A stretch of DNA of 64,000 bases from Anadara kagoshimensis (lineage: Eukaryota > Mollusca > Bivalvia > Arcoida > Arcidae). Each line of letters begins with the position of its first letter. Position 1 is the stretch's first letter. The DNA lies in NCBI GenBank assembly GCA_021292105.1, contig CM037868.1, forward strand, positions 27,610,139 through 27,674,138. The letters run 5' to 3'. The position numbers were made by a program, and so were the translations under genes. Of the stretch, positions 9,723 through 49,500 are shown piece by piece. Under the pieces are notes generated by a model, which made no database searches, was not told the origin of the DNA, and saw only the letters and a list, made by a program, of their open reading frames with translations.

Positions 9723-12700
9723 ACCTGTATAATGTGAACAGTATCTACAGTTCAGAAGGTGTTATGTTAGGACAGGTCCCTCTGTATAATGTGAACAATA
9801 CCTACAGTTCAGGTGTTATGTTAGGACAGGTCCCTCTGTATAATGTGAACAATATCTACAGTTCAGGTGTTATGTTAGGACAGGTCCCTCTGTATAATGT
9901 GAACAATATCTACAGTTCAGAAGGTGTTATGTTAGGACAGGTCCTCTGTATAATGTGAACAATACCTACAGTTCAGGTGTTATGTTAGGACAGGTCCCTC
10001 TGTATAATGTGAACAATATCTACAGTTCAGGTGTTATGTTAGGACAGGTCCCTCTGTATAATGTGAACAATATCTACAGTTCAGAAGGTGTTATGTTAGG
10101 ACAGGTCCCTCTGTATAATGTGAACAATACCTACAGTTCAGAAGGTGTTATGTTAGGACAGGTCCCTCTGTATAATGTGAACAGTATCTACAGTTCAGAA
10201 GGTGTTATGTTAGGACAGGTCCCTCTGTATAATGTGAACAATATCTACAGTTCAGAAGGTGTTATGTTAGGACAGGTCCTTCTGTATAATGTGAACAATA
10301 TCTACAGTTCAGGTATTATGTTAGGACAGGTCCCTCTGTATAATGTGAACAATATCTACAGTTCAGGTATTATGTTAGGACAGGTCCCTCTGTATAATGT
10401 GAACAATATCTACAGTTCAGAAGGTGTTATGTTAGGACAGGTCCTTCTGTATAATGTGAACAATATCTACAGTTCAGGTGTTATGTTAGGACAGGTCCCT
10501 CTGTATAATGTGAACAATATCTACAGTTCAGGTATTATGTTAGGACAGGTCCCTCTGTATAATGTGAACAATATCTACAGTTCAGAAGGTGTTATGTTAG
10601 GACAGGTCCTTCTGTATAATGTGAACAATACCTACAGTTCAGGTGTTATGTTAGGACAGGTCCCTCTGTATAATGTGAACATATCTACAGTTCAGGTATT
10701 ATGTTAGGACAGGTCCCTCTGTATAATGTGAACAATATCTACAGTTCAGAAGGTGTTATGTTAGGACAGGTCCTTCTGTATAATGTGAACAATACCTACA
10801 GTTCAGAAGGTGTTATGTTAGGACAGGTCCCTCTGTATAATGTGAACAGTATATACAGTTCAGAAGGTGTTATGTTAGGACAGGTCCCTCTGTATAATGT
10901 GAACAATATCTACAGTTCAGAAGGTGTTATGTTAGGACAGGTCCCTCTGTATAATGTGAACAGTATCTACAGTTCAGGTGTTATGTTAGGACAGGTCCCT
11001 CTGTATAATGTGAACAGTATCTACAGTTCAGAAGGTGTTATGTTAGGACAGGTCCCTCTGTATAATGTGAACAATACCTACAGTTCAGGTGTTATGTTAG
11101 GACAGGTCCCTCTGTATAATGTGAACAATATCTACAGTTCAGGTGTTATGTTAGGACAGGTCCCTCTGTATAATGTGAACAATATCTACAGTTCAGAAGG
11201 TGTTATGTTAGGACAGGTCCCTCTGTATAATGTGAACAATACCTACAGTTCAGAAGGTGTTATGTTAGGACAGGTCCCTCTGTATAATGTGAACAGTATC
11301 TACAGTTCAGAAGGTGTTATGTTAGGACAGGTCCCTCTGTATAATGTGAACAATATCTACAGTTCAGAAGGTGTTATGTTAGGACAGGTCCTTCTGTATA
11401 ATGTGAACAATATCTACAGTTCAGGTATTATGTTAGGACAGGTCCCTCTGTATAATGTGAACAATATCTACAGTTCAGGTATTATGTTAGGACAGGTCCC
11501 TCTGTATAATGTGAACAATATCTACAGTTCAGAAGGTGTTATGTTAGGACAGGCCTTCTGTATAATGTGAACAATATCTACAGTTCAGGTGTTATGTTAG
11601 GACAGGTCCCTCTGTATAATGTGAACAATATCTACAGTTCAGGTATTATGTTAGGACAGGTCCCTCTGTATAATGTGAACAATATCTACAGTTCAGAAGG
11701 TGTTATGTTAGGACAGGTCCTTCTGTATAATGTGAACAATACCTACAGTTCAGGTGTTATGTTAGGACAGGTCCCTCTGTATAATGTGAACAATATCTAC
11801 AGTTCAGGTATTATGTTAGGACAGGTCCCTCTGTATAATGTGAACAATATCTACAGTTCAGAAGGTGTTATGTTAGGACAGGTCCTTCTGTATAATGTGA
11901 ACAATACCTACAGTTCAGAAGGTGTTATGTTAGGACAGGTCCCTCTGTATAATGTGAACAGTATCTACAGTTCAGAAGGTATTATGTTAGGACAGGTCCC
12001 TCTGTATAATGTGAACAGTATCTACAGTTCAGAAGGTGTTATGTTAGGACAGGTCCCTCTGTATAATGTGAACAATATCTACAGTTCAGAAGGTGTTATG
12101 TTAGGACAGGTCCCTCTGTATAATGTGAACAATACCTACAGTTCAGAAGGTGTTATGTTAAGACAGGTCCCTCTGTATAATGTGAACAATACCTACAGTT
12201 CAGAAGGTGTTATGTTAGACAGGTCCCTCTGTATAATGTGAACAGTATCTACAGTTCAGAAGGTATTATGTTAGGACAGGTCCCTCTGTATAATGTGAAC
12301 AATATCTACAGTTCAGAAGGTGTTATGTTAGGACAGGTCCCTCTGTATAATGTGAACAGTATCTACAGTTCAGGTGTTATGTTAGGACAGGTCCCTCTGT
12401 ATAATGTGAACAGTATCTACAGTTCAGAAGGTGTTATGTTAGGACAGGTCCCTCTGTATAATGTGAACAATATCTACAGTTCAGAAGGTGTTATGTTAAG
12501 ACAGGTCCCTCTGTATAATGTGAACAGTATCTACAGTTCAGAAGGTATTATGTTAGGACAGGTCCCTCTGTATAATGTGAACAATATCTACAGTTCAGGT
12601 GTTATGTTAGGACAGGTCCCTCTGTATAATGTGAACAATATCTACAGTTCAGGTGTTATGTTAGGACAGGTCCCTCTGTATAATGTGAAAGTATCTACAG

Positions 12701-15700
12701 TTCAGAAGGTGTTATGTTAGGACAGGTCCCTCTGTATAATGTGAACAATACCTACAGTTCAGAAGGTGTTATGTTAGGACAGGTCCCTCTGTATAATGTG
12801 AACATATCTACAGTTCAGAAGGTGTTATGTTAGGACAGGTCCCTCTGTATAATGTGAACAATACCTACAGTTCAGAAGGTGTTATGTTAGGACAGGTCCC
12901 TCTGTATAATGTGAACAGTATCTACAGTTCAGAAGGTATTATGTTAGGACAGGTCCCTCTGTATAATGTGAACAATATCTACAGTTCAGGTATTATGTTA
13001 GGACAGGTCCCTCTGTATAATGTGAACAATATCTACAGTTCAGAAGGTGTTATGTTAGGACAGGTCCCTCTGTATAATGTGAACAGTATCTACAGTTCAG
13101 AAGGTGTTATGTTAGGACAGGTCCCTCTGTATAATGTGAACAATATCTACAGTTCAGAAGGTGTTATGTTAGGACAGGTCCCTCTGTATAATGTGAACAG
13201 TATCTACAGTTCAGAAGGTATTATGTTAGGACAGGTCCCTCTGTATAATGTGAACAATATCTACAGTTCAGAAGGTGTTATGTTAGGACAGGTCCCTCTG
13301 TATAATGTGAACAGTATCTACAGTTCAGAAGGTATTATGTTAGGACAGGTCCCTCTGTATAATGTGAACAGTATCTACAGTTCAGAAGGTGTTATGTTAG
13401 GACAGGTCCCTCTGTATAATGTGAACAGTATCTACAGTTCAGAAGGTATTATGTTAGGACAGGTCCCTCTGTATAATGTGAACAATATCTACAGTTCAGA
13501 AGGTGTTATGTTAGGACAGGTCCCTCTGTATAATGTGAACAATACCTACAGTTCAGAAGGTGTTATGTTAGGACAGGTCCCTCTGTATAATGTGAACAGT
13601 ATCTACAGTTCAGAAGGTATTATGTTAGGACAGGTCCCTCTGTATAATGTGAACAATATCTACAGTTCAGAAGGTTATGTTAGGACAGGTCCCTCTGTAT
13701 AATGTGAACAATACCTACAGTTCAGAAGTGTTATGTTAGGACAGGTCCCTCTGTATAATGTGAACAATACCTACAGTTCAGAAGGTGTTATGTTAGGACA
13801 GGTCCCTCTGTATAATGTGAACATATCTACAGTTCAGAAGGTGTTATGTTAGGACAGGTCCCTCTGTATAATGTGAACAATACCTACAGTTCAGAAGGTG
13901 TTATGTTAGGACAGGTCCCTCTGTATAATGTGAACAATATCTACAGTCAGAAGGTGTTATGTTAGGACAGGTCCCTCTGTATAATGTGAACAAATCTACA
14001 GTTCAGAAGGTGTTATGTTAGGACAGGTCCCTCTGTATAATGTGAACAATACCTACAGTTCAGAAGGTGTTATGTTAGGACAGGTCCCTCTGTATAATGT
14101 GAACAATACCTACAGTTCAGAAGGTGTTATGTTAGGACAGGTCCCTCTGTATAATGTGAACAATATCTACAGTTCAGAAGGTGTTATGTTAGGACAGGTC
14201 CCTCTGTATAATGTGAACAATACCTACAGTTCAGAAGGTGTTATGTTAGGACAGGTCCCTCTGTATAATGTGAACAATACCTACAGTTCAGAAGGTGTTA
14301 TGTTAGGACAGGTCCCTCTGTATAATGTGAACAATACCTACAGTTCAGAAGGTGTTATGTTAGGACAGGTCCCTCTGTATAATGTGAACAATATCTACAG
14401 TTCAGAAGGTGTTATGTTAGGACAGGTCCCTCTGTATAATGTGAACAATACCTACAGTTCAGAAGGTGTTATGTTAGGACAGGTCCCTCTGTATAATGTG
14501 AACAATACCTACAGTTCAGAAGGTGTTATGTTAGGACAGGTCCCTCTGTATAATGTGAACAATACCTACAGTTCAGAAGGTGTTATGTTAGGACAGGTCC
14601 CTCTGTATAATGTGAACAATACCTACAGTTCAGAAGGTGTTATGTTAGGACAGGTCCCTCTGTATAATGTGAACAATACCTACAGTTCAGAAGGTGTTAT
14701 GTTAGGACAGGTCCCTCTGTATAATGTGAACAATATCTACAGTTCAGAAGGTGTTATGTTAGGACAGGTCCCTCTGTATAATGTGAACAATATCTACAGT
14801 TCAGAAGTGTTATGTTAGGACAGGTCCCTCTGTATAATGTGAACAATACCTACAGTTCAGAAGGTGTTATGTTAGGACAGGTCCCTCTGTATAATGTGAA
14901 CAATATCTACAGTTCAGGTGTTATGTTAGGACAGGTCCCTCTGTATAATGTGAACAATATCTACAGTTCAGAAGGTGTTATGTTAGGACAGGTCCCTCTG
15001 TATAATGTGAACAATATCTACAGTTCAGAAGGTGTTATGTTAGGACAGGTCCCTCTGTATAATGTGAACAATATCTACAGTTCATGTGTTATGTTAGGAC
15101 AGGTCCCTCTGTATAATGTGAACAGTATCTACAGTTCAGAAGGTGTTATGTTAGGACAGGTCCCTCTGTATAATGTGAACAATATCTACAGTTCAGAAGG
15201 TGTTATGTTAGGACAGGTCCCTCTGTATAATGTGAACAATACCTACAGTTCAGAAGGTGTTATGTTAGGACAGGTCCCTCTGTATAATGTGAACAATATC
15301 TACAGTTCAGAAGGTGTTATGTTAGGACAGGTCCCTCTGTATAATGTGAACAATACCTACAGTTCAGAAGGTGTTATGTTAGGACAGGTCCCTCTGTATA
15401 ATGTGAACAATACCTACAGTTCAGAAGGTGTTATGTTAGGACAGGTCCCTCTGTATAATGTGAACAATATCTACAGTTCAGGTGTTATGTTAGGACAGGT
15501 CCCTCTGTATAATGTGAACAATATCTACAGTTCAGGTGTTATGTTAGGACAGGTCCCTCTGTATAATGTGAACAGGATCTACAGTTCAGAAGGTGTTATG
15601 TTAGGACAGGTCCCTCTGTATAATGTGAACAATACCTACAGTTCAGAAGGTGTTATGTTAGGACAGGTCCCTCTGTATAATGTGAACAATATCTACAGTT

Positions 15701-18700
15701 CAGAAGGTGTTATGTTAGGACAGGTCCCTCTGTATAATGTGAACAATACCTACAGTTCAGAAGGTGTTATGTTAGGACAGGTCCCTCTGTATAATGTGAA
15801 CAATATCTACAGTTCAGTTGTTATGTTAGGACAGGTCCCTCTGTATAATGTGAACAATATCTACAGTTCAGAAGGTGTTATGTTAGGACAGGTCCCTCTG
15901 TATAATGTGAACAATATCTACAGTTCAGAAGGTGTTATGTTAGGACAGGTCCCTCTGTATAATGTGAACAATATCTACAGTTCAGGTGTTATGTTAGGAC
16001 AGGTCCCTCTGTATAATGTGAACAATATCTACAGTTCAGAAGGTTATGTTAGGACAGGTCCCTCTGTATAATGTGAACAGTATCTACAGTTCAGAAGGTG
16101 TTATGTTAGGACAGGTCCCTCTGTATAATGTGAACAGTATCTACAGTTCAGGTGTTATGTTAGGACAGGTCCCTCTGTATAATGTGAACAATATCTACAG
16201 TTCAGGTGTTATGTTAGGACAGGTCCCTCTGTATAATGTGAACAATATCTACAGTTCAGAAGGTGTTATGTTAGGACAGGTCCCTCTGTATAATGTGAAC
16301 AATATCTACAGTTCAGAAGGTGTTATGTTAGGACAGGTCCCTCTGTATAATGTGAACAGTATCTACAGTTCAGGTGTTATGTTAGGACAGGTCCCTCTGT
16401 ATAATGTGAACAATATCTACAGTTCAGAAGGTGTTATGTTAGGACAGGTCCCTCTGTATAATGTGAACAGTATCTACAGTTCAGAAGGTGTTATGTAAGG
16501 ACAGGTCCCTCTGTATAATGTGAACAGTATCTACAGTTCAGAAGGTGTTATGTTAAGACAGGTCCCTCTGTATAATGTGAACAGTATCTACAGTTCAGAA
16601 GGTGTTATGTTAAGACAGGTCCCTCTGTATAATGTGAACAGTATATACAGTTCAGAAGGTGTTATGTTAGGACAGGTCCCTCTGTATAATGTGAACAATA
16701 CCTACAGTTCAGGTGTTATGTTAAGACAGGTCCCTCTGTATAATGTGAACAGTATCTACAGTTCAGAAGGTGTTATGTTAGACAGGTCCCTCTGTATAAT
16801 GTGAACAATATCTACAGTTCAGAAGGTGTTATGTTAAGACAGGTCCCTCTGTATAATGTGAACAATATCTACAGTTCAGAAGGTGTTATGTTAGGACAGG
16901 TCCCTCTGTATAATGTGAACAGTATCTACAGTTCAGAAGGTGTAATGTTAGGACAGGTCCCTCTGTATAATGTGAACAGTATCTACAGTTCAGAAGGTGT
17001 TATGTTAGGACAGGTCCCTCTGTATAATGTGAACAGTATATACAGTTCAGAAGGTGTTATGTTAGGACAGGTCCCTCTGTATAATGTGAACAGTATCTAC
17101 AGTTCAGAAGGTGTTATGTTAGGACAGGTCCCTCTGTATAATGTGAACAATACCTACAGTTCAGGTGTTATGTTAGGACAGGTCCCTCTGTATAATGTGA
17201 ACAGTATCTACAGTTCAGAAGGTGTTATGTTAAGACAGGTCCCTCTGTATAATGTGAACAATATCTACAGTTCAGAAGGTGTTATGTTAAGACAGGTCCC
17301 TCTGTATAATGTGAACAATATCTACAGTTCAGAAGGTGTTATGTTAGGACAGGTCCCTCTGTATAATGTGAACAGTATCTACAGTTCAGAAGGTGTTATG
17401 TTAGGACAGGTCCCTCTGTATAATGTGAACAGTATCTACAGTTCAGAAGGTGTTATGTTAGGACAGGTCCCTCTGTATAATGTGAACAGTATATACAGTT
17501 CAGAAGGTGTTATGTTAGGACAGGTCCCTCTGTATAATGTGAACAGTATCTACAGTTCAGAAGGTGTTATGTTAGGACAGGTCCCTCTGTATAATGTGAA
17601 CAATACCTACAGTTCAGGTGTTATGTTAGGACAGGTCCCTCTGTATAATGTGAACAGTATCTACAGTTCAGAAGGTGTATGTTAAGACAGGTCCCTCTGT
17701 ATAATGTGAACAATATCTACAGTTCAGGTGTTATGTTAAGACAGGTCCCTCTGTATAATGTGAACAATATCTACAGTTCAGAAGGTGTTATGTTAGGACA
17801 GGTCCCTCTGTATAATGTGAACAGTATCTACAGTTCAGAAGGTGTTATGTTAGGACAGGTCCCTCTGTATAATGTGAACAGTATCTACAGTTCAGAAGGT
17901 GTTATGTTAGGACAGGTCCCTCTGTATAATGTGAACAGTATCTACAGTTCAGAAGGTGTATGTTAGGACAGGTCCCTCTGTATAATGTGAACAGTATCTA
18001 CAGTTCAGAAGGTGTTATGTTAGGACAGGTCCCTCTGTATAATGTGAACAATACCTACAGTTCAGGTGTTATGTTAAGACAGGTCCCTCTGTATAATGTG
18101 AACAGTATCTACAGTTCAGAAGGTGTTATGTTAAGACAGGTCCCTCTGTATAATGTGAACAATATCTACAGTTCAGAAGGTGTTATGTTAAGACAGGTCC
18201 CTCTGTATAATGTGAACAATATCTACAGTTCAGAAGGTGTTATGTTAAGACAGGTCCCTCTGTATAATGTGAACAGTATCTACAGTTCAGAAGGTGTTAT
18301 GTTAGGACAGGTCCCTCTGTATAATGTGAACAGTATCTACAGTTCAGAAGGTGTTATGTTAGGACAGGTCCCTCTGTATAATGTGAACAGTATCTACAGT
18401 TCAGAAGGTGTTATATTAGGACAGGTCCCTCTGTATAATGTGAACAGTATATACAGTTCAGAAGGTGTTATGTTAGGACAGGTCCCTCTGTATAATGTGA
18501 ACAATATCTACAGTTCAGAAGGTATTATGTTAGGACAGGTCCCTCTGTATAATGTGAACAATACCTACAGTTCAGAAGGTGTTATAGTTAGGACAGGTCC
18601 CTCTGTATAATGTGAACAATATCTACAGTTCAGAAGGTGTTATGTTAGGACAGGTCCCTCTGTATAATGTGAACAATACCTACAGTTCAGAAGGTATTAT

Positions 18701-19737
18701 GTTAGGACAGGTCCCTCTGTATAATGTGAACAGTATCTACAGTTCAGGTGTTATGTTAGGACAGGTCCCTCTGTATAATGTGAACAGTATCTACAGTTCA
18801 GGTGTTATGTTAGGACAGGTCCCTCTGTATAATGTGAACAATATCTACAGTTCAGAAGGTGTTATGTTAGGACAGGTCCCTCTGTATAATGTGAACAATA
18901 TCTACAGTTCAGGTGTTATGTTAGGACAGGTCCCTCTGTATAATGTGAACAGTATCTACAGTTCAGGTGTTATGTTAGGACAGGTCCCTCTGTATAATGT
19001 GATGAACAATATCTACAGTTCAGAAGGTGTTATGTTAGGACAGGTCCCTCTGTATAATGTGAACAATATCTACAGTTCAGGTGTTATGTTAGGACAGGTC
19101 CCTCTGTATAATGTGAACAATATCTACAGTTCAGAAGGTGTTATGTTAGGACAGGTCCCTCTGTATAATGTGAACAATATCTACAGTTCAGAAGGTGTTA
19201 TGTTAGGACAGGTCCCTCTGTATAATGTGAACAATACCTACAGTTCAGAAGGTGTTATATTAGGACAGGCCCCTCTGTATAATGTGAACAATACCTACAG
19301 TTCAGAAGGTGTTATGTTAGGACAGGTCCCTCTGTATAATGTGAACAGTATATACAGTTAGAAGGTGTTATGTTAGGACAGGTCCCTCTGTATAATGTGA
19401 ACAATCTACAGTTCAGAAGGTGTATGTTAGGACAGGTCCCTCTGTATAATGTGAACAATATCTACAGTTCAGAAGGTGTTATGTTAGGACAGGTCCCTCT
19501 GTATAATGTGAACAATACCTACAGTTCAGAAGGTGTTATGTTAGGACAGGTCCCTCTGTATAATGTGAACAATATCTACAGTTCAGAAGGTGTTATGTTA
19601 GGACAGGTCCCTCTGTATAATGTGAACAATATCTACAGTTCAGAAGGTATTATGTTAGGACAGGTCCCTCTGTATAATGTGAACAATACCTACAGTTCAG
19701 AAGGTGTTATGTTAGGACAGGTCCCTCTGTATAATGT
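9723..19737. repeat. Giant minisatellite, 57/54-bp units (about 177 copies, 10 kb)
   Basis: Each unit contains GGACAGGTCCCTCTGTATAA and CTACAGTTCAG(AAG)GTGTTATG, the 3-bp AAG being present or absent. Both lengths keep one plus frame open, reading MLGQVPLYNVNNIYSSEGV per unit. Single-base indels break the frame about every 0.3-1.2 kb. Most unit-to-unit differences change the amino acid (N/S, I/T, V/I, P/L, G/R), so there is no sign of selection on a protein. Blocks with similar variants cluster, as expected of segmental amplification. Confidence 0.97.
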
Positions 19738-25546: not shown

Positions 25547-28500
25547 CTGAAAATGAAAAATAATGCTAGTTTAATAAAAAGTATAAAAAATTACTGATAG
25601 TGTAAAATATGTACAGGACATCACTAAACGCCTAACACTAGAACAATAACCCCGTATCATATCTTAGTTCTATTATATAGAGTTTTGTAGAGTAGCACAA
25701 AAAACCAAAGTCAGGAATATTGTTGCAGCATACAAAGTCAATATTTTATAATACTATTTCATCATTTGACTATTTAGAAATGATATTTATAGTGCTATAA
25801 CTTCCATTGTTGTGTAAAGCACATTGAATAACATGTGCTAGTGCTAGTGTTTTGTAATTCTGAAATAAATCAAAAACACTGTCGTGTATGACATGCATTT
25901 TCAATCGCTGAAACAGCCCTTCAATGACTATTCGTATAGACATACACAATAACTGAGTGACGTCAAAATAGCAATGGTAATTGTAATCCTATAATAATTC
26001 CATTTGCCCTCAAACTGAGTTTAATACATACATATTATATACTCAGTGTGTAGGTACAACCTTCAGTATCAGGTCGAGTCCTTTTTTCGTAAAAAAGCGT
26101 GACTCGTAGTGATACGGCTACGAAAAAAGGACTCGACCTGATACGAAGGGTTGAACATACACACTTTGATATTATATTTTTATCTAACATTTCCAACTTG
26201 GTAATTTAAACAAAAACAAGAGGCCCATGGGCCTTAACGCTCACCTGAGGAAGAGTACATATCTTATGCAGAGGTTCAATGGCCAATGACATTAATAAAA
26301 GAGAATATCAAAATTTTCAGCAGTAAAGGCCAATAATATGCAAGTATTTTTGCAAATGAATTATAATAATTATTATATAAGTATGCTTATATAACATATT
26401 TAAAGTCTAGCTACAATATATTATTTATAAACAGCTAAAACATCTGTATATTAAAATGTGCATTAGGCCAATACCTACAATATTCCAATATACATGTCTA
26501 TACAAAGAGTTTATAGTTTTTGAGATAATTAACCATTTAAGTATTCGTTTGCATCTATAACCTTGACCTTTGAACCTATGACCTTCATTCATATATCAAA
26601 ATGATTGTTGTGCAAATGCCTACAATATTCCAATATACATGCCTATACAAAAAGTTTATAGTTTTTGAGATAATTAACCATTTAAGTATTCATTTGCATC
26701 TATGACCTTGACCTTTGAACCTATGACCTTCATTCATATATCAAAATGATCGATAGGCATATACCTACAATATTCTAATATACATGCCTATACAAAAAAT
26801 TCATAGATTTGCAGATAATTAACTATTTTGGTATTCTTGGACATCTGTGACCTTGACCTTTGAACCCATGAACCTGATCTATGTATCAAAATGATCGTCA
26901 TGTCAATACCTACAAATAACTGAAAATCCTATGCCATTGTCACAAGAAATGTTAAAAAAAATAGCATTTTTTATCAAAGGTCAAAAACTGGGACATGACC
27001 TTGACCTTCGACCTTGACATCAATTGGAAGAAAATTGCAAGACAAGATCAACAGTGAAAACTCCATACAATTATCTTCAGCCGTTATGAAGTTATAACAA
27101 TAAATGTCTCATTTTAAAAATTACGTAATTTTACGCAAAAAAGGCGTAACCTATTTTTCGTCTAATTTTCATAAAAAACATAATTTTATGTTCCCAGGTA
27201 TGCTGAATCCAAATATCCAATCAAAATTTGCCTGCACCTTTTGGTTTCAGAGAAGAAGATTTTTTGTCCTTTTGCTATTTTTAGTAACAGCGGCCATCTT
27301 GTTGGGGTGGCCAAACCCGAACACAATTTTGAAAGGCTGTTACCTAGGCATGATAATCACCAAGTTTCATCAAATATTGCCCAGTAGTTTTGGAGGAGAA
27401 GATTAAAATGTAAAGTTTACACACTACGCACGACGGACGACGACGGTGATAGATTGCAATAGCTCATCTGAGCCTTTGGCTCAGGTGAGCTAAAAAAACA
27501 CTTGATGTGAAAAAATTATATATTACCACAGAAAAACACTGAACTATGTATGACATATGTTCTGTAGCAATGACGTCATTATTTACATTTGACAAATCGG
27601 AGATTCCCCAATGATGTCACAATGAGAAATCTAACTAAAAGTGCATGTGTACTTTACAGCCAATGTTGTATCACCACAAGATTCTGTCATGCGTGTTCGA
27701 TAAAACTTGTATTTCATAGAAAAACTAGTCTAATGTTAGATAAAATAAAATATCATAAATGTAAATATATTATGGACACCATCACCCCAACTACCTGAAT
27801 AATAAAACATCATAATGAAGTAAATAATTAACGCCATCCTTCCCTCCTCCATTCTTTCTATCCCTCCCTTTCTTCCATCCTTCATTCTTTCACCTTTCCT
27901 CATTAATTCTTTCTTTCTCTCTTTACTCCTTCATTCCTCCCTCCTTCATTTTCTCTCCCTCCCTCCCGTCCATCCTTAATTTTTCTCTTCTACACTCCTT
28001 CCATCCTTCATTAATTCCCTCCCTTTCTTATTCTTTCTCTCCCTTCCTCCATTCATTCCTTCCCTCCTTCATTCTTTCTCTCCCTCCCTTCATCCTTCAT
28101 TTTTCAATTCTACAATCCCTCCCTTCATTATTTCTCTCCCTTCTCCATTCATCCTTCCACTTCATTTTTCTCTTCTACACTCCCTTCATCCTTCACTTTT
28201 CTCTTCTACACTCCTTCCATCCTTCATTCTTTCCCTCCCTTCTTCATTCTTTCTCTCCTTTTTCCATTCATTCCTTCCATCCTTCATTTTTTCTCTTCTA
28301 CACTCCCTTCCATCCTTCATTCTTTCCATCCCTCTCTTCCTTTCTTCATTCTTTCTCTCCCTTCCTCCATTCTATCCTTCCCGTTTTCATTCTTTTTCTC
28401 TCCCTCTCTCCATTTCATCCTTCCTTCCTTCATTCTTTCTCTCCTTCCCTCCTTATTTCCCTCTCTCCTTCCTTTCTTCCTATCTTACTTCTTCTAGTTG

Positions 28501-31500
28501 ATTTTGTAATTGTAACATAGTCTCCGTTATGAGCTATCTGTGTCTTTGATGAACCATCTGACATGTCACCTAAAATTATTCTTGTCGGAAATAACAATCT
28601 ACGAAACAGCTGAAATAAGAACATAAACAAGAATTAATCAATGGCTCAATTGATTTACAACTTGATCTGGGTAAAATATAGTAAAACACTGCAAAGTAAA
28701 GTGAAGAACTGTCTAAACTCAACTACTTTATTTGTATTAATAATGTTTGTTAAATTAAACTGTATAAACAAAACAAAACTTCAGTCAAGAAAGTGTTACA
28801 GACATCGATATCATTATTCTATGTTGCAGCAAGTTAATTACTCCTCTATTTTGAATGACTGACTGACCAATTTGATGTAATATAAATTTGTATGAGCTAA
28901 TGGCTTTGTTTTATATATAACTTACAAACTGAAATCTGGGATAGTCTTGCATTATAATTTGACCCTCTCGTCTGGCTTGGAATTTGTCAATTGCTGTAGA
29001 ATTGGGAACAAAAAATGTGAAGGTACATCCAACACGATTTTGTCCACAGAATCCCATGTTATGTGCATTGGTGTTGACTTTAGATCTTTGTGTGGTAGTT
29101 GGTGGATTCCAGAATTGTGGATAAGGAGCTTGTGTGACATACTGATTATTGTTACCCCAGTTTGGTGGATATCCATACTGCTCAAAGTAACATTTCTTGG
29201 CATCAAAACGTCTGTCTTTTATATAGTTTGTCATTTCTAGTGTTTTTATGTAATCATATGTTTTCCTGAAAAAAAAGGTTCAGCCTATAGAAGCCACATA
29301 TCATCACAAATTAACATGGGTATATATGAATATGGTAGGTCACTAACAAAAGCCACATATCATCACAAATGAACATGGGTATATCTAAAAATGGTAGGTC
29401 ACTTACAAAAGCCACATATCATCACAAATTAACAAGGGTATATCTAAAAATAGTAGGTCACTTACAAAAGCCACATATCATCACAAATCTAAATATGGTA
29501 GGTCACTAACAAAAGCCACACATCATCATCACAAATTAACATGGGTACATCTAAATATGGTAGGTCACTTACAAAAGCCACATATCATCACAAATTAACA
29601 TGGGTATATCTAAAAATAGTAGGTCACTAACAAAAGCCACATATCATCACAAATGAACATGGGTACATCTAAATATGGTAGGTCACTTACAAAAGCCACA
29701 TATCATCACAAATGAACACGGGTACATCTAAATATGGTAGGTCACTTACAAAAGCCACACATCATCATCACAAATTAACAAGGGTATATCTAAATATGGT
29801 AGGTCACTTACAAAAGCCACATGTCATCACAAATGAACATGGGTACATCTAAATATGGTAGGTCACTTACAAAAGCCACACATCATCATCACAAATTAAC
29901 AAGGGTATATCTAAATATGGTAGGTCACTTACAAAAGCCACATATCATCATCACAAATGAACACGGGTATATCTAAACATGGTAGGTCACTTACAAAAGC
30001 CACATATCATCATCACAAATTAACATGGGTATATCTAAATATGGTAGGTCACTTACAAAAGCCACATATCATCACAAATTAACATGGCTATATCTAAATA
30101 TGGTAGGTCACTTACAAAAGCCACATATCATCACAAATGAACATGGGTACATCTAAATATGGTAGGTCACTTACAAAAGCCACATATCATCATCACAAAT
30201 TAACATGGGTATATCTAAATATGGTAGGTCACTTACAAAAGCCACATATCATCACAAATGAACATGGGTACATCTAAATATGGTAGGTCACTTACAAAAG
30301 CCACATATCATCATCACAAATTAACATGGGTACATCTAAATATGGTAGGTCACTTACAAAAGCCACATATCATAATCACAAATTAACATGGGTATATCTA
30401 AATATGGTAGGTCACTTACAAAAGCCACATATCATCACAAATTAACATGGGTATATCTAAATATGGTAGGTCATTTACAAAAGCCACATATCATCATCAC
30501 AAATTAACATGGGTACATCTAAATATGGTAGGTCACTTACAAAAGCCACATATCATCATCACAAATTAACATGGGTATATCTAAATATGGTAGGTCACTT
30601 ACAAAAGCCACATATCATCACAAATTAACATGGGTATATCTAAATATGGTACACCTAGAACTGCATCAATGTAGTTAACTTGGCCATTTGTACATGCTAC
30701 ATCAGGATCAACCACTTTAGCTTTAACACCACCAAGTCCTCTTGGTCCTCCTTGTACCCAACTCTCTAAAAAACAAATATAATTATTATTTCTAATTTGT
30801 ATGAATATTTTAAATACTGAAAGAGTATACAATTACAGTTGACAAGGAGGGGTCAGTTATTATAGGGAAGAGATACAATTACTAGGCTTGAGATTGGGAG
30901 GCAATGCAGTTAATAAGGGAAAGTTTCAGTTACTAGGAAAGAGATACATTTACTAGGTTGGATATTCAAATACCTGGGGGTGGGTAGGGGAGAGATTAAA
31001 TTACTAGGGTAGAGATACAGTTACTGGGGAGAAGATAAGCTACTAAGAAGGAAATATATTTACTAGGGTAGAGATACAGTTACTAGGAGTAGATAGGTTA
31101 CTATAATAGGTGGATATACAGTTACTAGGGAAAATACACCATTACTAGTTGGAGATACAGTTACTAGGGAGGAGATACAGTTACTAGGGTTGAGATTCAG
31201 TTACTAAGGAGAATATGTGATTACTAGGTGGAGATAGTTACAAGGAAGGAGATAAAGTTACTAGGGTGGAGATTCAGTTACTTTTACTAGGGAGGAGATA
31301 CTCTGAGATACTCAGGTGAACATAGTTACAAGGGAGGGGATACAGTAACTAAGGTAGAGATACAGTTAATATGGAAAGATACAGTTACGAGGGTTGAAAT
31401 TCAGTTACTCGGGTGAACATACAGTTACTAGGGAGGAGATGAAGTTACTCAGGTGGACATACAGTTACTAGGATGGAGATTAAGTTACTCAGGTGAACAT

Positions 31501-37500: not shown

Positions 37501-40500
37501 ATGTACAGCACATGCAGCAGTGTCCTGCACATGTGGCAGTATCCAGCACATGTAGCAGTATCCAGCACATGTAGCAGTATCCAGCACATGTAGTGGTATC
37601 CTGCACATGTGGCAGTATCCAGCACATGTAGCAGTATACAGAACATGTAGCGGTATCCAGCACATGTAGCGGTATCCAGCACATGTATCAGTATCCAGCA
37701 CATGTAGTGGTATCCAGCACATGTAGCAGTGTACATCACATGTAGTAGTGTCCTAGCACATGTAGCAGTATCCAACAAATGTAGTAGTGTCCCAAACATG
37801 TGGCAGTTACCAGCACATGTAACAGTATGCAGCAAATGTAGTAGTGTCCCAAACATGTAGCAGTTACCAGCACATGTAGCAGTATCCAGCATATGTAGTA
37901 GTGTCCCAAACATGTAGCAGTTACCAGCACATGTAGCAGTATCCAGCATATGTAGTAGTGTCCCACAAATGTACCAGTATCCAGTTTATGTAGTGGTATC
38001 CAGCAGTATCCAGCACATGTAGCAGTTACCAGCACATGTAGTGGTATCCAGCACATGTGGCAGTATACAGCACATGTAGTAGTGTCCAGCACTTGTAGCA
38101 GTTACCAGCACATATAACCATATCCAGCACATGTAACAGTATCCTGCAAATGTTCTTCAAAATAAAGTGTTATAAGACAAAAATTTTATGACTTACCTGC
38201 CATATTTAGAGATTTCTTCTCGGACTGAATAAAACACATATCCAAGTAATTTGTCAATGATATGGACTACACCGTTACGACATGTCAAATTTCCATTTGT
38301 TATTTCTGCTGTTACTCTCAAACTGTTGACATACACTGAAAAATAACAAAAATATATTGAGTATTCTACTACCTATCCAAACAAGTTTATGTTTATCCTC
38401 GACATTAACCAGAGCTATCAGCCCTAAATACTGATAGTTGTCAGCCCTAAACTGATAGATGTCAACCCTAAATACTAAAGTCAGCCCTAAACTGATATAT
38501 GGCAACCCTAAATACTGATAGATGTCAGCCTAAATAACAATAGATGTTAATTATGTTATTATGGACTAATTGTTCAATGTACCTGATTTTTACACTGAAA
38601 CAATGTGTATGGATTATGAATGAATCCCCCTTCTATCTATATTTTACCAGAGTACTGCTAAGCAGTAAATAACATTCCTGCCACTCAAAACAACCTGACA
38701 AAATTCAAAGCCAATTTTTAATTTAAAATGATTCAGTTTGAATGCTGATATTTAAAATGATATGTCTGAATTCTGATACAAGATGAGCAATAGGAATGAG
38801 GGATGAATTGCCTATATATTCATCTAGCACTTTGCTTGACATAAAATTTAAGACAGCCAGGCATGCCTTACATAATTTCCAATCTGCATCATTAAGATAA
38901 TTCACACTTAAAATAATCCAGATTTTGAAAGTCTCAGCTAAAAATAGAACATCAGCATAACAACTTTACCATGATCTAAGTTTGGTTTCCTGATAATGAC
39001 TCTGTTCTCTTTAGTGTTACTGACAGCAGGATAGCCATCTCTAAAGCCGTGATTATGAACAGTAGGTTCTGTAAATACAGCTTGTCCAGGTATAATATGG
39101 GCATATAACCTGAAATAGTAAATTTTGTAATACAGTAAAACAATGAAAATTAAATACATTATTTTAGTCCTGTCAAAGTGGTCCTAGATTGAGAGAGTGA
39201 GTTTTCGTAGGAAATCAAAATCCTATTTAAAGAAATGGATCCCTCTCCCAGAACAGGTTTAGTCTGGATAAGTCTAACTCTTTTTTAAAAAGTCTGGAAT
39301 TACTGTATTTTCAAAAATTGAGTGCACATGCTTTTTATTATTTATTTCTTTTAATTGAAAATGTTTCCATTAAACTACGTGTATCAATAAAATGCATTTA
39401 AAATGCACTGACCTAATTATATTTTTAATTAAAAACAAATTTGGAAATTTGATCAAGTTTATACACCAATTGGGCCGCATTCAAAGTTACATGGGCTATT
39501 TGGTGTCAAGTAGGTCATTGTTGTTCGGATTTTTTCCAGGTGTGATCATCATGAATATTCCAATTATGACATAACGTTTATAGTTGTTCCAAGTAAGAAG
39601 GTACAAAAGGGATCATTTTGACGTAGTCATACATGTATTTGTTGTTTTGTTAAAGTGTTCAAAAATTGCTCATTGTACAGAATTAAGCTCAGTTTTTCAT
39701 AATTGAAAAATATTTTTCCTATTAGGTCAGTATATTTTGTATTAAGTTTTGAGAAACTTTTTGTGAGTTTGTTGGAAAATACGACTTTATTATTGCATTT
39801 TCCTTGTGCACTGAATTTGTGGAAATACAGTAGTTACTCTTCATTTAGCCAAAATAGGTTCAGTTATCTCGAACTCGGATATCTCAAAATTTCAGATAAG
39901 TCACATTCATTTTCAGGTCTCCTGAATGAAAATTCAACAAAAAAAGTGTTCATAAACTCGAACTTAAAAGTTTTCAATCAACTCAATTTGATAAAATTTA
40001 ATTTTAGCTACTGCCGGGAGCTTTGCTCTTCATGTCATAAATAGTCATGATTTTTATCTCAAACTGACCTCATTGCTTCTGTGAATTATTGTCTTTTCAC
40101 AAATAAATAATTAAACAGATAGAAAACCTGATATTGATCAAGAGTGATGGTCAAACAGAAGTAAGGAGTGATTATATATAATATCCTAATCATAACAAGA
40201 ATAGAGACAAAACGGGATGATTTTTTTGTCTGCAAAATAGAAAAAAAATGAAAAGAGAAAAAGTTTTAAAACTAAATCTTAGATAAACAAAACCACACAC
40301 TAAACGGTTAATGTGTAGAAGATGATCAACATAGGAGTGAAAATGAAGTAACTTAGTTTCAGTCGGCAAAAGTACTAACACCCCCCATCCCCATGACTGC
40401 CATCCACAACTTCATTTATCTTAAATTTCTGATAAACCGCGCTATTTCCTCATGGAGTTTGAGATAACAAGATATTTTGAGTTTTGATAAATCTAAACAG

Positions 40501-43500
40501 ACCATTCCTGTTTCCTCTGATCGTTAATAAAAGCGTATCAGATGAACACAAGTCATTTATTATTCAAATTTTAGTGCACCTTTTCACTTATCATGCATTA
40601 ATTTTTAACTAGCACTCTCTCTTGAGAGCTAATAACTCCACCCCCTCCAAACATCAAATGTTTTCCCACAGACTTGACCTTTGACATATGCACAAAAATT
40701 TGGTATGCAACACATCGTTTTATGTGTTTACATTTGTATTAAGTTTGATCAAATCCATCCATAGACATAGAAGATATGGAGCAGACATGATATTGGGACA
40801 GACAGGTAGACAGAAAGACAGACCGATAGACAGGGAGATTCTTATATACTCCTTAACTTTGTTTGTGGGGTATAAAAATATGCAGGATGGACGTCGGCGC
40901 GACATTCTGACCAACTAATAAATGATAATGATGGTAATGATATATCAAACCTTATACAGAGTTTCTTCTTCCCTTTCCAATCGATCTCTAAAAGAGCTGG
41001 GTATTTTTGCCATAGCTTTATCTGAGGGTACAAAAAGTGTTAAAGTTGTATCAATATCCTGCATGGTATGTACAGGATCAAAATAGCTCAATGACAATGA
41101 GTCCACCAATTTCTTAAAAAGTCTGTAACAAATAAAAAATATAACCAACATTATATAGTCATTGTCACAAATATAACCAACAATATATAGTTACTGTCAC
41201 AAATATAACCAACATTATACAGTAACTGTCACAAATATAACCAACATTATATAATAGTCATTGTCACAAAATTAACCAACCAACATTATATATAGTCATT
41301 GTTACAAATACAACCAACATTATACAGTCGCTGTCACAAATACAACCAACATTATACAGTCATTGTCACAAATATAACCAACATTATACAGTCACTGTCA
41401 CAAATACAACCAACATTATACAGTCACTGTCACAAATATAACCAACATTATATAATAGTCATTGTCACAAATATAACCAACATTATACAGTCATTGTCAC
41501 AAATATAACAGACATTATACAGTCACTGTCACAAATATAACCAACATTATATAATAGTCATTGTCACAAATATAACCAACATTATATACTCATTGTCACA
41601 AATACAACCAACATTACATAGTCATTGTCACAAATATAACCAACATTATATAGTCACTGTCACAAATATAACCAACATTATACAGTCATTGTCACAAAGT
41701 AACCAACATTAGTTACTGTCACAAATATAACCAACATTTTACAGTCATTGTCACAAATATAACCAATATTATACAGTCACTGTCACAAATATAACAAACA
41801 TTATATAATAGTCATTGTTACAAATATAACCAACAATATATAGTTACTGTCACAAATATAACCAAAATTATACAGTCATTGTCACAAATATAACCAACAT
41901 TATATAGTCATTGTCACAAATATAACCAATATTATACAGTCACTGTCACAAATATAACCAACATTATATAGTCACTGTCACAAATATAACCAACATTATA
42001 CAGTCATTGTGACAAAGTAACCAATATTATACAGTCATTGTCACAAATATAACCAACATTATATAGTCATTGTCACAAATATAACCAATATTATACAGTC
42101 ACTGTCACAAATATACTCAATATTATATAGTCACTGTCACAAATATAATCAACATTATAGTCACTGTCACAAATTACTAACAAATATCTGTAGTTAACCT
42201 TGCCAATAATGACTAATAATGCATTGAAATGATAAAACGCTACCTTGTGGGTTCACTGACACCATCTTTGTTGTCCTGTGATAGATACATATAGGCACTC
42301 TCAGCTATAGGAACATGCATAACATCAAGTAGACCATGTAAATAACCATTTCTACAGTACTTGTTCTTATAATGGTTATTTATCTCTGCACCGTTCACAT
42401 AGTATAAAGTTGCTCCAAAGGTACCCTGAAAGTTCTACAAAAAAACAGGTTGGAATATTGTTTCTTTGTTTTTTCATCTACATAGTAAAATATAAAGTGA
42501 TTTCAAAGTTGCCTTTGTGTTTTCATCTACACAGTAAAGTATAAAGTGATTTCAAAGTTGCCTTTGTGTTTTCATTTACAAAGTAAAGTATAAAGTGATT
42601 TCAAAGTTGCCTTTGTGTTTTCATTTACAAAGTAAAATATAAAGTGATTTCAAAGTTGCCTTTGTGTTTTCATTTACAAAGTAAAGTATAAAGTGATTTC
42701 AAAGTTGCCTTTGTGTTTTTATTTACATAGTAAAGTATAAAGTGATTTCAAAGTTGCCTTTGTGTTTTCATCTACAAAGTAAAGTATAAAGTGATTTCAA
42801 AGTTGACTTTGTGTTTTCATCTACAAAGTAAAGTATAAAGTGATTTCAAAGTTGCCTTTGTGTTTTCATCTACATAGTAAAGTAAAAAGTGATTTCAAAT
42901 TGCCTTTGTGTTTTTATTTACATAGTAAAATATAAAGTGATTTCAAAGTTGCCTTTGTGTTTTTATTTACATAGTAAAATATAAAGTGATTTCAAAGTTG
43001 CCTTTGTGTTTTCATCTACAAAGTAAAGTATAAGGTGATTTCAAAGTTGCCTTTGTGTTTTTATTTACAAAGTAAAGTATAAGGTGATTTCAAAGTTGCC
43101 TTTGTGTTTTCATCTACAAAGTAAAGTATAAAGTGATTTCAAAGTTGCCTTTGTGATTTTATTTACATAGTAAAATATTAAGTGATTTCAAAGTTGCCTT
43201 TGTTTTCATCTACAAAGTAAAGTATAAAGTGATTTCAAAGTTGCCTTTGTGTTTTCATCTACATAGTAAAGTATAAAGTGATTTCAAACTTGACTTTGTG
43301 TTTTCGTCTACAAAGTAAAGTATAAGGTGATTTCAAAGTTGCCTTTGTGTTTTCATCTACAAAGTAAAGTATAAGGTGATTTCAAAGTTGCCTTTGTGTT
43401 TTCATCTACATAGTAAAGTATAAAGTGATTTCAAAGTTGACTTTGTGTTTTCGTCTACAAAGTAAAGTATAAGGTGATTTCAAAGTTGCCTTTGTGTTTT

Positions 43501-46500
43501 CATCTACAAAGTAAAGTATAAAGTGATTTCAAAGTTGCCTTTGTGTTTTCATCTACATAGTAAGTATAAAGTGATTTCAAAGTTGACTTTGTGTTTTCGT
43601 CTACAAAGTAAAGTATAAAGTGATTTCAAAGTTGCCTTTGTGTTTTCATCTACAAAGTAAAGTATAAAGTGATTTCAAAGTTGCCTTTGTGTTTTCATCT
43701 ACATAGTAAAGTATAAAGTGATTTCAAAGTTGACTTTGTGTTTTCGTCTACAAAGTAAAGTATAAGGTGATTTCAAAGTTGCCTTTGTGTTTTCATCTAC
43801 ATAGTAAAGTATAAAGTGATATCAAAGTTGCCTTTGTGTTTTTATTTACATAGTAAAATATAAAGTGATTTCAAAGTTGCCTTTGTTTTCATCTACAAAG
43901 TAAAGTATAAAGTGATTTCAAAGTTGCCTTTGTGTTTTTATTTACATAGTAAAATATTAAGTGATTTCAAAGTTGCCTTTGTGTTTTCATCTACAAAGTA
44001 AAGTATAAAGTGATTTCAAAGTTGCCTTTGTGATTTTATTTACACAGTAAAGTATAAAGTGATTTCAAAGTTGCCTTTGTTTTCATCTACAAAGTAAAGT
44101 ATAAAGTGATTTCAAAGTTGCCTTTGTGTTTTCATCTACATAGTAAAGTATAAAGTGATTTCAAAGTTGACTTTGTGTTTTCGTCTACAAAGTAAAGTAT
44201 AAGGTGATTTCAAAGTTGCCTTTGTGTTTTCATCTACAAAGTAAAATATTAAGTGATTTCAAAGTTGCCTTTGTGTTTTCATCTACAAAGTAAAGTATAA
44301 AGTGATTTCAAAGTTGACTTTGTGTTTTTATTTACATAGTAAAGAATAAAGTGATTTCAAAATTGCCTTTGTGTTTTCATCTACACAGTGAAGTATAAAG
44401 TGATTTCAAAGTTGCCTTTGTGTTTTTATTTACATAGTAAAATATAAAGTGATATCAAAGTTGCCTTTGTGTTTTTATTTACATAGTAAAGTATAAAGTG
44501 ATTTCAAAGTTGCCTTTGTGTTTTCATCTACATAGTAAAGTATAAAGTGATTTCAAAATTGCCTTTGTGTTTTCATCTACAAAGTAAAGTATAAAGTGAT
44601 TTCAAAGTTGCCTTTGTGTTTTCATCTACATAGTAAAGAATAAAGTGATTTCAAAACTGCCTTTGTGTTTTCATCTACACAGTAAATTATAAAGTGATTT
44701 CAAAGTTGCCTTTGTGTTTTCATCTACATAGTAAAGTATAAAGGGATTTCAAAGTTGCCTTTGTGTTTTCATCTACAAAGTAAAGTATAAGGTGATTTCA
44801 AAGTTGCCTTTGTGTTTTCATCTACATAGTAAAGTAAAAAGTGATTTCAAAGTTGCCTTTGTGTTTTCATCTACAAAGTAAAGTATAAAGTGATTTCAAA
44901 ATTGCCTTTGTGTTTTCATCTACATAGTAAAGTATAAAGTGATTTCAAATTGCCTTTGTTTTCATCTACAAAGTAAAGTATAAGGTGATTTCAAAGTTGC
45001 CTTTGTGTTTTCATCTACATAGTAAAGTAAAAAGTGATTTCAAAGTTGCCTTTGTGTTTTCATCTACAAAGTAAAGTATAAAGTGATTTCAAAATTGCCT
45101 TTGTGTTTTCATCTACATAGTAAAGTATAAAGTGATTTCAAATTGCCTTTGTTTTCATCTACAAAGTAAAGTATAAAGTGATTTCAAAGTTGACTTTGTG
45201 TTTTCATCTATATAGTAAAGTATAAAGTGATTTCAAAGTTGCCTTTGTGTTTTCATCTACACAAAGTAAAATATAAAGTGATTTCAAAGTTGACTTTGTG
45301 TTTTCATCTACATAGTAAAGTATAAAGTGATTTCAAAATTGGCTTTGTGTTTTCATCTACATAGTAAAGTATAAAGTGATTTCAAAGTTGCCTTTGTGTT
45401 TTCATTTACAAAGTAAAGTATAAGGTGATTTCAAAGTTGCCTTTGTGTTTTCATCTACATAGTAAAGTATAAAGGGATTTCAAAATTGGCTTTGTGTTTT
45501 TATTTACATAGTAAAATATAAAGTGATTTCAAAGTTGCCTTTGTGTTTTTATTTACATAGTAAAATATAAAGTGATTTGAAAGTTGCCTTTGTGTTTTCA
45601 TCTACAAAGTAAAGTATAAGGTGATTTCAAAGTTGCCTTTGTGTTTTATTTACATAGTAAAATATAAAGTGATTTCAAAGTTGCCTTTGTGTTTTCATCT
45701 ACAAAGTAAAGTATAAGGTGATTTCAAAGTTGCCTTTGTGTTTTTATTTACATAGTAAAATATAAAGTGATTTCAAAGTTGCCTTTGTGTTTTCATCTAC
45801 ATAGTAAAGTATAAAGTGATTTCAAAATTGGCTTTGTGTTTTCACCTACATATTAAAGTATAAAGTGATTTCAAAATTGCCTTTGTGTTTTCATCTACAT
45901 AGTAAAGTATAAAGTGATTTCAAAGTTGACTTTGTGTTTTCATCTACAAAGTAAAGTATAAGGTGATTTCAAAGTTGCCTTTGTGTTTTTATTTACATAG
46001 TAAAATATAAAGTGATTTCAAAGTTGCCTTTGTGTTTTCATCTACAAAGTAAAGTATAAGGTGATTTCAAAGTTGCCTTTGTGTTTATTTACATAGTAAA
46101 ATATAAAGTGATTTCAAAGTTGCCTTTGTGTTTTTATTTACATAGTAAAATATAAAGTGATTTCAAAGTTGCCTTTGTGTTTTCATCTACATAGTAAAGT
46201 ATAAAGTGATTTCAAAATTGCCTTTGTGTTTTTATTTACATAGTAAAATATAAAGTGATTTCAAAGTTGCCTTTGTGTTTTCATCTACAAAGTAAAGTAT
46301 AAAGTGATTTCAAAGTTGCCTTTGTTTTCATCTACAAAGTAAAGTATAAAGTGATTTCAAAGTTGACTTTGTGTTTTCATCTATATAGTAAAGTATAAAG
46401 TGATTTCAAAGTTGCCTTTGTGTTTTCATCTACACAAAGTAAAATATAAAGTGATTTCAAAGTTGACTTTGTGTTTTCATCTACATAGTAAAGTATAAAG

Positions 46501-49500
46501 TGATTTCAAAATTGGCTTTGTGTTTTCATCTACATAGTAAAGTATAAAGTGATTTCAAAGTTGCCTTTGTGTTTTCATTTACAAAGTAAAGTATAAGGTG
46601 ATTTCAAAGTTGCCTTTGTGTTTTCATCTACATAGTAAAGTATAAAGGGATTTCAAAATTGGCTTTGTGTTTTCATCTACATAGTAAAGTATAAAGGGAT
46701 TTCAAAATTGCCTTTGTGTTTTCATTTACAAAGTTAAGTATAAGGTGATTTCAAAGTTGCCTTTGTGTTTTCATCTACATAGTAAAGTATAAAGTGATTT
46801 CAAAATTGCCTTTGTGTTTTTATTTACATAGTAAAATATAAAGTGATTTCAAAATTGCCTTTGTGTTTTCATCTACAAAGTAAAGTATAAAGGGATTTCA
46901 AAGTTGCCTTTGTGTTTTTATTTACATAGTAAAATATAAAGTGATTTCAAAATTGCCTTTGTGTTTTCATCTACATAGTAAAGTATAAAGGGATTTCAAA
47001 GTTGCCTTTGTGTTTTTATTTACATAGTAAAGTATAAAGTGATTTCAAAGTTGCCTTTGTGTTTTCATCTACACAGTAAAGTATAAAGGGATTTCAAAGT
47101 TGCCTTTGTTTTCATCTACAAAGTAAAGTATAAAGTGATTTCAAAATTGCCTTTGTGTTTTCATCTACAAAGTAAAGTATAAGGTGATTTCAAAGTTGCC
47201 TTTGTGTTTTTATTTACATAGTAAAGTATAAAGGAATTTCAAAATTGCCTTTGTGTTTTTATTTACATAGTAAAGTATAAAGTGATTTCAAAATTGCCTT
47301 TGTGTTTTCATCTACATAGTAAAGTAAAAAGTGATTTCAAAGTTGCCTTTGTGTTTTCATCTACAAAGTAAAGTAAAAAGTGATATCAAAGTTGCCTTTG
47401 TGTTTTCATTTACATAGTAAAGTATAAAGTGATTTCAAAGTTGCCTTTGTGTTTTCATCTACATAGTAAAGTATAAAGTGATTTCAAAGTTGCCTTTGTG
47501 TTTTCATCTACATAGTAAAGTATAAAGTGATTTCAAAGTTGCCTTTGTGTTTTCATCTACATAGTAAAGTATAAAGTGATTTCAAAGTTGCCTTTGTGTT
47601 TTTATTTACATAGTAAAGTATAAAGTGATTTCAAAGTTGCCTTTGTGTTTTCATCTACATAGTAAAGTATAAAGTGATTTGAAAGTTGACTTTGTGTTTT
47701 CATCTACATAGTAAAGTATAAAGTGATTTCAAAATTGCCTTTGTGTTTTTATTTACATAGTAAAGTATAAAGTGATTTCAAAGTTGCCTTTGTGTTTTTA
47801 TTTACATAGTAAAGTATAAAGTGATTTCAAAGTTGCCTTTGTGTTTTCATCTACATAGTAAAGTATAAAGTGATTTCAAAGTTGCCTTTGTGTTTTCATC
47901 TACATAGTAAAGTATAAAGTGATTTCAAAGTTGCCTTTGTGTTTTCATCTACATAGTAAAGTAAAAAGTGATTTCAAAGTTGCCTTTGTGTTTTCATCTA
48001 CACAGTAAAGTATAAAGTGATTTCAAAGTTGACTTTGTGTTTTCATCTACACAGTGAAGTATAAAGTGATATCAAAGTTGCCTTTGTGTTTTTATTTACA
48101 TAGTAAAATATAAAGTGATTTCAAAGTTGACTTTGTGTTTTCATCTACATAGTAAAGTATAAAGTGATTTCAAAGTTGCCTTTGTGTTTTCATCTACAAA
48201 GTAAAGTATAAAGTGATTTCAAAGTTGCCTTTGTGTTTTCATCTACATAGTAAAGTATAAAGTGATTTCAAAGTTGCCTTTGTGTTTTCATCTACAAAGT
48301 AAAGTATAAAGTGATTTCAAAGTTGACTTTGTGTTTTCATCTACATAGTAAAGTATAAAGTGATTTCAAAGTTGACTTTGTGTTTTCATCTACATAGTAA
48401 AGTATAAAGTGATTTCAAAATTGCCTTTGTGTTTTTATTTACATAGTAAAATATAAAGTGATTTCAAAGTTGCCTTTGTGATTTTATTTACATAGTAAAA
48501 TATTAAGTGATTTCAAAGTTGCCTTTGTTTTCATCTACATAGTAAAGTATAAAGTGATTTCAAAGTTGCCTTTGTGTTTTCATCTACATAGTAAAGTATA
48601 AAGTGATTTCAAAGTTGCCTTTGTGTTTTCATCTACATAGTAAAGTATAAAGTGATTTCAAAGTTGACTTTGTGTTTTCATCTACATAGTAAAGTATAAA
48701 GTGATTTCAAAATTGCCTTTGTGTTTTATTTACATAGTAAAATATAAAGTGATTTCAAAGTTGCCTTTGTGTTTTGATTTACATAGTAAAATATAAAGTG
48801 ATTTCAAAGTTGCCTTTGTGTTTTCATCTACAAAGTAAAGTATAAGGTGATTTCAAAGTTGACTTTGTGTTTTCATCAACAAATTAAAATATTAAGCGAT
48901 TTCAAAGTTGCCTTGAAGGCTAGTTCTTTACTTGTCTACATGTATCACCTTCATACAAACTATGTATAGGTCACAAAGGTACATTGAGAGTCAAGAGTTT
49001 TTGTGTGACTGGAGTTTGTTTGAGAGCAGTTTTGTGGTGATTTTCACTGGCATGGTTGTAGTACTTAACACTCTGTAAATTATGATGAGCAGTATTTTAA
49101 TTATCTAATTTCAGTGAGTTTCTGAACTGGAAGTTAAGTGGCACTGTGATTATTGGTTTGTCGTCAGAAGTGAAACCAGTTGCCTTGACCAGGTTTTTTA
49201 TCAAATAAGCAAATTTATTAATACGGGCTTGCTTTTAGATTTCATAAAGGATTGTTTTGTATATGTACAAATGTAAAATTTGTACCCTGGTTTAGCCAGG
49301 ATTATTTCAGAAATATTAAGTAGAGCTTACTCAAGATTTTCAATGTTTATCTACATTTTTAATAATACATTTAATAATAATAATAAAAAGCTTTATTGGA
49401 AAACTGATGTTTCAGTGTTCATCCACATGTACAAATATCTACAATTTTTGTGTTTATTGGTCTAATGTTTTTGACGTTTGTTATGATTCCTTTTTTGTTA

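Follow-up and report, generated by a model that had tools for sequence, protein, structure and literature searches.

The array and its host gene

The stretch of DNA analyzed here, referred to below as the window, is a 64,000 nt part of the genome of the bivalve Anadara kagoshimensis (GenBank assembly GCA_021292105.1, contig CM037868.1, positions 27,610,139 to 27,674,138 of the forward strand), with a GC content that is mostly 27–40%. On its minus strand lies a gene for a Fasciclin-I-like protein with FAS1 domains, and one intron of this gene is almost completely filled by a minisatellite that begins within the coding sequence of the preceding exon, so that most of its units carry a copy of the 5' splice site (donor). 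In an earlier note on this DNA the exon was called exon 10, and the name is kept here as a label; the number itself was not confirmed, as it is the ninth exon in a gene model built by eye, in which 12 exons were recognized, eight of them upstream of this one. The features of this part of the gene are listed below by their positions in the window.

30603–30765, minus strand: exon 10, 163 nt, coding for the C-terminal part of a FAS1 domain and for linker, ESWVQGG...VNYIDAVLGVPYLDIPMLICDDMWL(L) (Pfam PF02469, PDB 1o70)
30603–30651, minus strand: exonic part of the first repeat unit, 49 nt; the complete unit 1 is identical to unit 4
30597–30602, minus strand: outermost 5' splice site, GTAAGT, phase 2, the probable true donor
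29291–30651, minus strand: minisatellite array of 23 units of 59/62 bp, counting the half-exonic first and the partial last
29266–29290, minus strand: array-free 3' tail of the intron, 25 nt, with CTGAAC (putatively branch-point-like), a pyrimidine tract and AG
28926–29265, minus strand: exon 11, 340 nt up to a candidate donor, coding for linker and the first part of the FAS1 domain that follows; the 3' end was set by eye

The intron between exons 10 and 11 extends from 30602 to 29266 (1337 nt), with exon 11 beginning at 29265, and the array accounts for 1312 of these nucleotides (98.1%), leaving only the short tail that carries the acceptor. The earlier note had placed the array at 29272–30655 and had it occupy the whole intron; the interval proved slightly wide, being off by about 20 bases at most, and the intron is filled apart from the 25-nt acceptor tail. 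Units are 59 or 62 bp long, depending on whether they contain two or three GAT, except for a shortened unit 20 of 45 bp. The first unit is half exonic, 21 further units follow, and a partial unit lies at the acceptor end. As the note had proposed, the end of exon 10 and its donor form the first unit, which comprises 49 nt of coding sequence followed by GTAAGTGACC (49 exonic and 10 intronic nt); over 59 bp, unit 4 is an exact match to it. The exon–intron boundary falls inside the repeat unit, as in a mirage-type minisatellite. The note's counts of about 22 units and about 18 copies of GTAAGT were also right: among the 22 donor positions, GTAAGT is found at 18, GTTAGT at three and GTAAAT at one.

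Repeated GTAAGT is by itself unremarkable in this genome, and the unusual part is that the first copy is the end of an exon. A pattern representing a ladder of three donors gave 39,474 matches genome-wide, compared to 23,603 for the reversed control, with overlapping matches and simple repeats counted in both; the excess is not usable as a sign of selection, since the matches listed include simple repeats of the GTAA type. No unusual RNA structure was predicted in the 221 nt around the first donors (z +0.87).

Judged by its sequence, the host gene is best called a Fasciclin-I-like FAS1 protein, of the Fasciclin type of cell adhesion proteins. The joined exon model (698 aa) matches Pfam PF02469 with a whole-protein E of 1.1e-44 and shows four FAS1 stretches, a count that uses a lenient E of 1 on a model joined by eye, and its matches in the PDB include periostin, TGFBI and Fasciclin I (1o70, the Drosophila protein). 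Exon 10 covers positions 99–121 of the 123 in PF02469. Proteins of the Fasciclin I type have a signal peptide and a C-terminal membrane anchor, and the hydrophobic sequence found at both ends of the exon model would fit a secreted, membrane-anchored protein.

Order of events at the boundary

When exons 10 and 11 are joined, the inferred protein and Fasciclin I (1o70; E 5.4e-8 for the whole chain) can be aligned without gaps over query positions 12–64, an interval that spans the junction, and residues common to both include GVPY, D-M and TY. Two FAS1 paralogues on another contig of the same genome (L059 and L060), which form a recent pair, have a GTAAGT donor 53 nt past the IDxVL motif (IDKVL) and in phase 2, exactly as in the window, and in L059 the next exon reads on in frame when joined across the intron. 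Their corresponding introns are about 1.0 and 0.8 kb long, and Tandem Repeats Finder (TRF) detected no array in either. As L059 and L060 are near copies of each other, they count as one independent witness. Another domain linker of the host gene is also interrupted by a phase-2 intron, 47 nt past its motif. A DNA search of the 1.1-Gb assembly, of a kind that skips common words, detected the repeat unit nowhere but here. With Fasciclin I providing a homologue for the exon end, paralogues sharing the position of the intron, and the unit detected at a single locus, the array most likely grew within a pre-existing intron from its 5' boundary, and the exon end and the intron look older than the repeat.

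These comparisons bear on two other origins. Tandem duplication across splice boundaries has been described as a route to new introns (PMC3087553, PMC2812944), and the intron could in principle have been created by tandem duplication of exon ends. We rejected this as very improbable, however, because L059 and L060 have an intron that agrees exactly with this one in position and phase but contains no array; a phase-2 intron in another linker of the host gene and an acceptor tail that lies outside the repeat likewise speak against it. Alternatively, an unrelated satellite or mobile minisatellite may have landed in the intron and then overwritten or converted the exon end, as might be imagined in a window so rich in other minisatellites, but this is scarcely credible: within the limits of the DNA search the unit is present at one locus, so that a dispersed satellite is not supported as the source, and its exon-derived half encodes a peptide that aligns with Fasciclin I.

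An alignment of all units to the end of exon 10 revealed that those near the exon are almost perfect and distant ones are more diverged. Mean substitutions relative to the exonic unit were 0.8 in units 2–11 and 2.6 in units 12–22 (the count omits a change in unit 5 that coincides with an alignment gap). Divergence climbs with distance from the exon (Spearman 0.73), a value reached in 3 of 20,000 permutations, although this figure is not a true probability because the units are not independent. Such a gradient fits growth or homogenization from the exon side, and together with the ungapped Fasciclin I alignment and the array-free paralogue pair it supports the view in the earlier note that the array was born from an exon–intron junction. 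In the mechanism we propose, the last 49 nt of the exon and the first 10 nt of the intron would have been duplicated and amplified into the intron until it was full, save for the 25 nt at the acceptor end. The exon copy would stay intact because it is protein-coding and carries a working donor, while the array would be renewed from, or homogenized towards, the exon side, leaving the near units almost perfect and the far ones worn.

Choice among the donors

The phase across the outermost donor is correct for joining exon 10 to exon 11. By contrast, each of the downstream donors (21/21) would add the same in-frame TAA directly after DDMWLL at the end of exon 10, a stop codon that sits within the donor itself (CTT TTG TAA), and the full protein could therefore be made from the first donor only. 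Along with the ungapped alignment to 1o70 and the position of the donor in the paralogues, this supports the outermost donor as most likely the true one, as the earlier note had argued from phase. Splicing there would give the right exon length and the right phase, at the donor that is transcribed first, whereas a slip to a downstream donor would bring in the TAA and lead to a truncated frame and presumably to mRNA decay. Because the first donor would be preferred and slips would meet a stop immediately, the ladder is probably tolerated rather than used, with no function of its own.

Human IFI6 (6-16) has a minisatellite at an intron's 5' end, reportedly found by Turri and colleagues in 1995 to contain multiple splice donors. 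Its units are described as acting as splice donors, with the use of downstream units giving rise to several mRNAs and isoforms (PMC4526556). In both cases a minisatellite provides repeated splice donors within one transcript, but in IFI6 the downstream units yield isoforms, whereas here all 21 add an immediate in-frame TAA. It might be supposed from this parallel that the ladder is a regulatory device, in which downstream donors are spliced at some rate to give stop-containing isoforms that lower the output, and copy number tunes the level. That 18 of the 22 donors are intact, that every downstream donor leads to the same stop, and that two downstream repeat units of IFI6 are said in the same source to be used as donors (PMC4526556) would all agree with this. 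Copying alone also predicts intact donors, however, and non-consensus cells number 4 of 132 in the donor hexamer, compared to 33 of 1144 where the unit is derived from the exon; that the hexamer varies about as much as the exon-derived part speaks against selection for extra donors. Amphioxus repeats of this sort are, moreover, reported without disturbance of splicing (PMC3087553, PMC3902484), and a regulatory role for the ladder seems unlikely.

The amphioxus examples are those for which the name 'mirages' was given to tandem repeats over exon–intron boundaries, and two reports list them in the globins BflGb6 and BflGb9, and in Adh3, TnC and PGBD5, with splicing apparently undisturbed (PMC3087553, PMC3902484). 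As in these, the unit in the window spans the boundary and many units keep the splice signals, but it differs in the number of units (23, compared to six and three in the haplotypes reported for BflGb6; PMC3087553), in filling 98% of the intron and in showing a gradient from the exon. In human segmental duplications, internal tandem repeats and minisatellite expansion at exon–intron boundaries are described as altering introns (PMC2812944); the expansion at a boundary is alike, but there it is linked with new introns and alternative splicing, whereas in the window the intron seems to predate the repeat. Among the titles and abstracts of the papers listed in our search, which lay mostly outside subscription journals, no boundary-spanning minisatellite was found for a mollusc; one abalone report describes a minisatellite inside an intron, and the part of it available makes no mention of overlap with a boundary. 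The array in the window is a large, well-ordered addition to the kind already described in the mirages and IFI6, and overturns nothing known. It adds a large boundary-spanning minisatellite for which an order of events can be inferred (the array coming after the exon end and the intron), and illustrates how an intron may be lengthened through the outward copying of coding sequence. With 18 donors that are alike in sequence and near context and differ mainly in position, it is also a natural experiment in how a 5' splice site is selected.

Overall, we consider it highly probable that this is a boundary-seeded minisatellite on an existing exon–intron junction, that the outermost donor is the one most likely spliced, and that the ladder is tolerated. 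Several points weigh on the other side. Exons 10 and 11 on their own give a marginal Pfam match (23.4 bits for exon 10, against a cut-off of 22), and the host gene is not among the 84 matches of a genome-wide FAS1 search. Paralogues and a single distant protein are the basis for the relative age of intron and array, and block duplications could also produce the gradient, which is absent from a second array of this type (L062, see below), where units 2–5 differ from the exonic unit by 8, 7, 9 and 9 of 114 positions. The use of the outermost donor is deduced from the sequence, and U1 is predicted to pair equally well with the first donor and with the 17 downstream donors that are intact (-5.6 kcal/mol, compared to -1.7 and -1.6 for the two variant sequences), so that position or context, and not donor strength, would have to decide the choice.

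A second case and other repeats

The second exon-end minisatellite, and an independent example from the same genome, is carried by another FAS1 gene, L062 (G000 C6:18333000-18340500), at minus strand positions 4598–5221. It consists of 115-bp units (5.4 copies) with five GTAGG donors, and is unrelated in sequence to the first case. Each unit corresponds to the end of a FAS1 exon, ...LAKGFSSAGIADIFE (in a further rendering, ...NRPNLQTLAKGFSSAGIADIFE), plus the GTAGG donor. Two acceptors were tried for the outermost donor, and with one of them the frame continues into EGGPFTLFAPTDEAF. L064, a paralogue of L062, has a donor at an equal distance, 106 nt past the motif, and in the same phase, and the intron that follows is array-free.

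A survey of FAS1 genes took in 50 of the 84 genome-wide matches with 300-bp flanks, several of these being exons of one gene or near-identical gene pairs, and was blind to exons extending more than 200 bp beyond the Pfam match. An array was present within 200 bp of 11 of the 50 matches. Inspection of eight of these 11 arrays by sequence (L062, two in L067, two in L075, L078, L068 and L064; the other three are two in L059 and one in L060) found only that of L062 to be exon-derived. The sole match flagged by an automatic overlap test, L070, was rejected, as it has a CAT/CAC run just inside the intron that is not derived from the exon.

A broader proposal, which we regard as possible though rather doubtful, is that the exon end acts as a selection-protected master copy that re-seeds its own intron, with growth from the exon side, donors that are continually refreshed, and a process that is recurrent in this genome. 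If so, exon-end donor ladders would constantly challenge the spliceosome to pick the first among many identical donors, and would be a natural test of how it does so.

Other minisatellites are plentiful in the window. Two of them are very long, of which the first (9725–19737) has 178 copies of a 57 bp unit and many long open frames on the plus strand, up to 429 aa, that encode YNVNNIYSSEGVMLGQVPL-type repeats. The second (42464–48914; 49 bp, 132 copies) stops some 30 bp away from a host gene exon, and host gene arrays at 41137–42174, 37506–38153 and 27837–28481 end 8–44 bp from exon edges that were placed by eye. With intron 10 left out, and with several exon edges again placed by eye, 7 of 30 array ends in the host gene lie within 100 bp of an exon edge compared to 4.0 expected (p 0.015), a weak excess over chance.

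Matches to FAS1 and P450 are often paired, with near-equal scores and about 0.3–4 Mb apart on one contig (G000 C6, C12, C14, C17 and C19), which suggests large recent duplications or uncollapsed haplotypes. The pairs L056/L057 and L059/L060 look alike in sequence.
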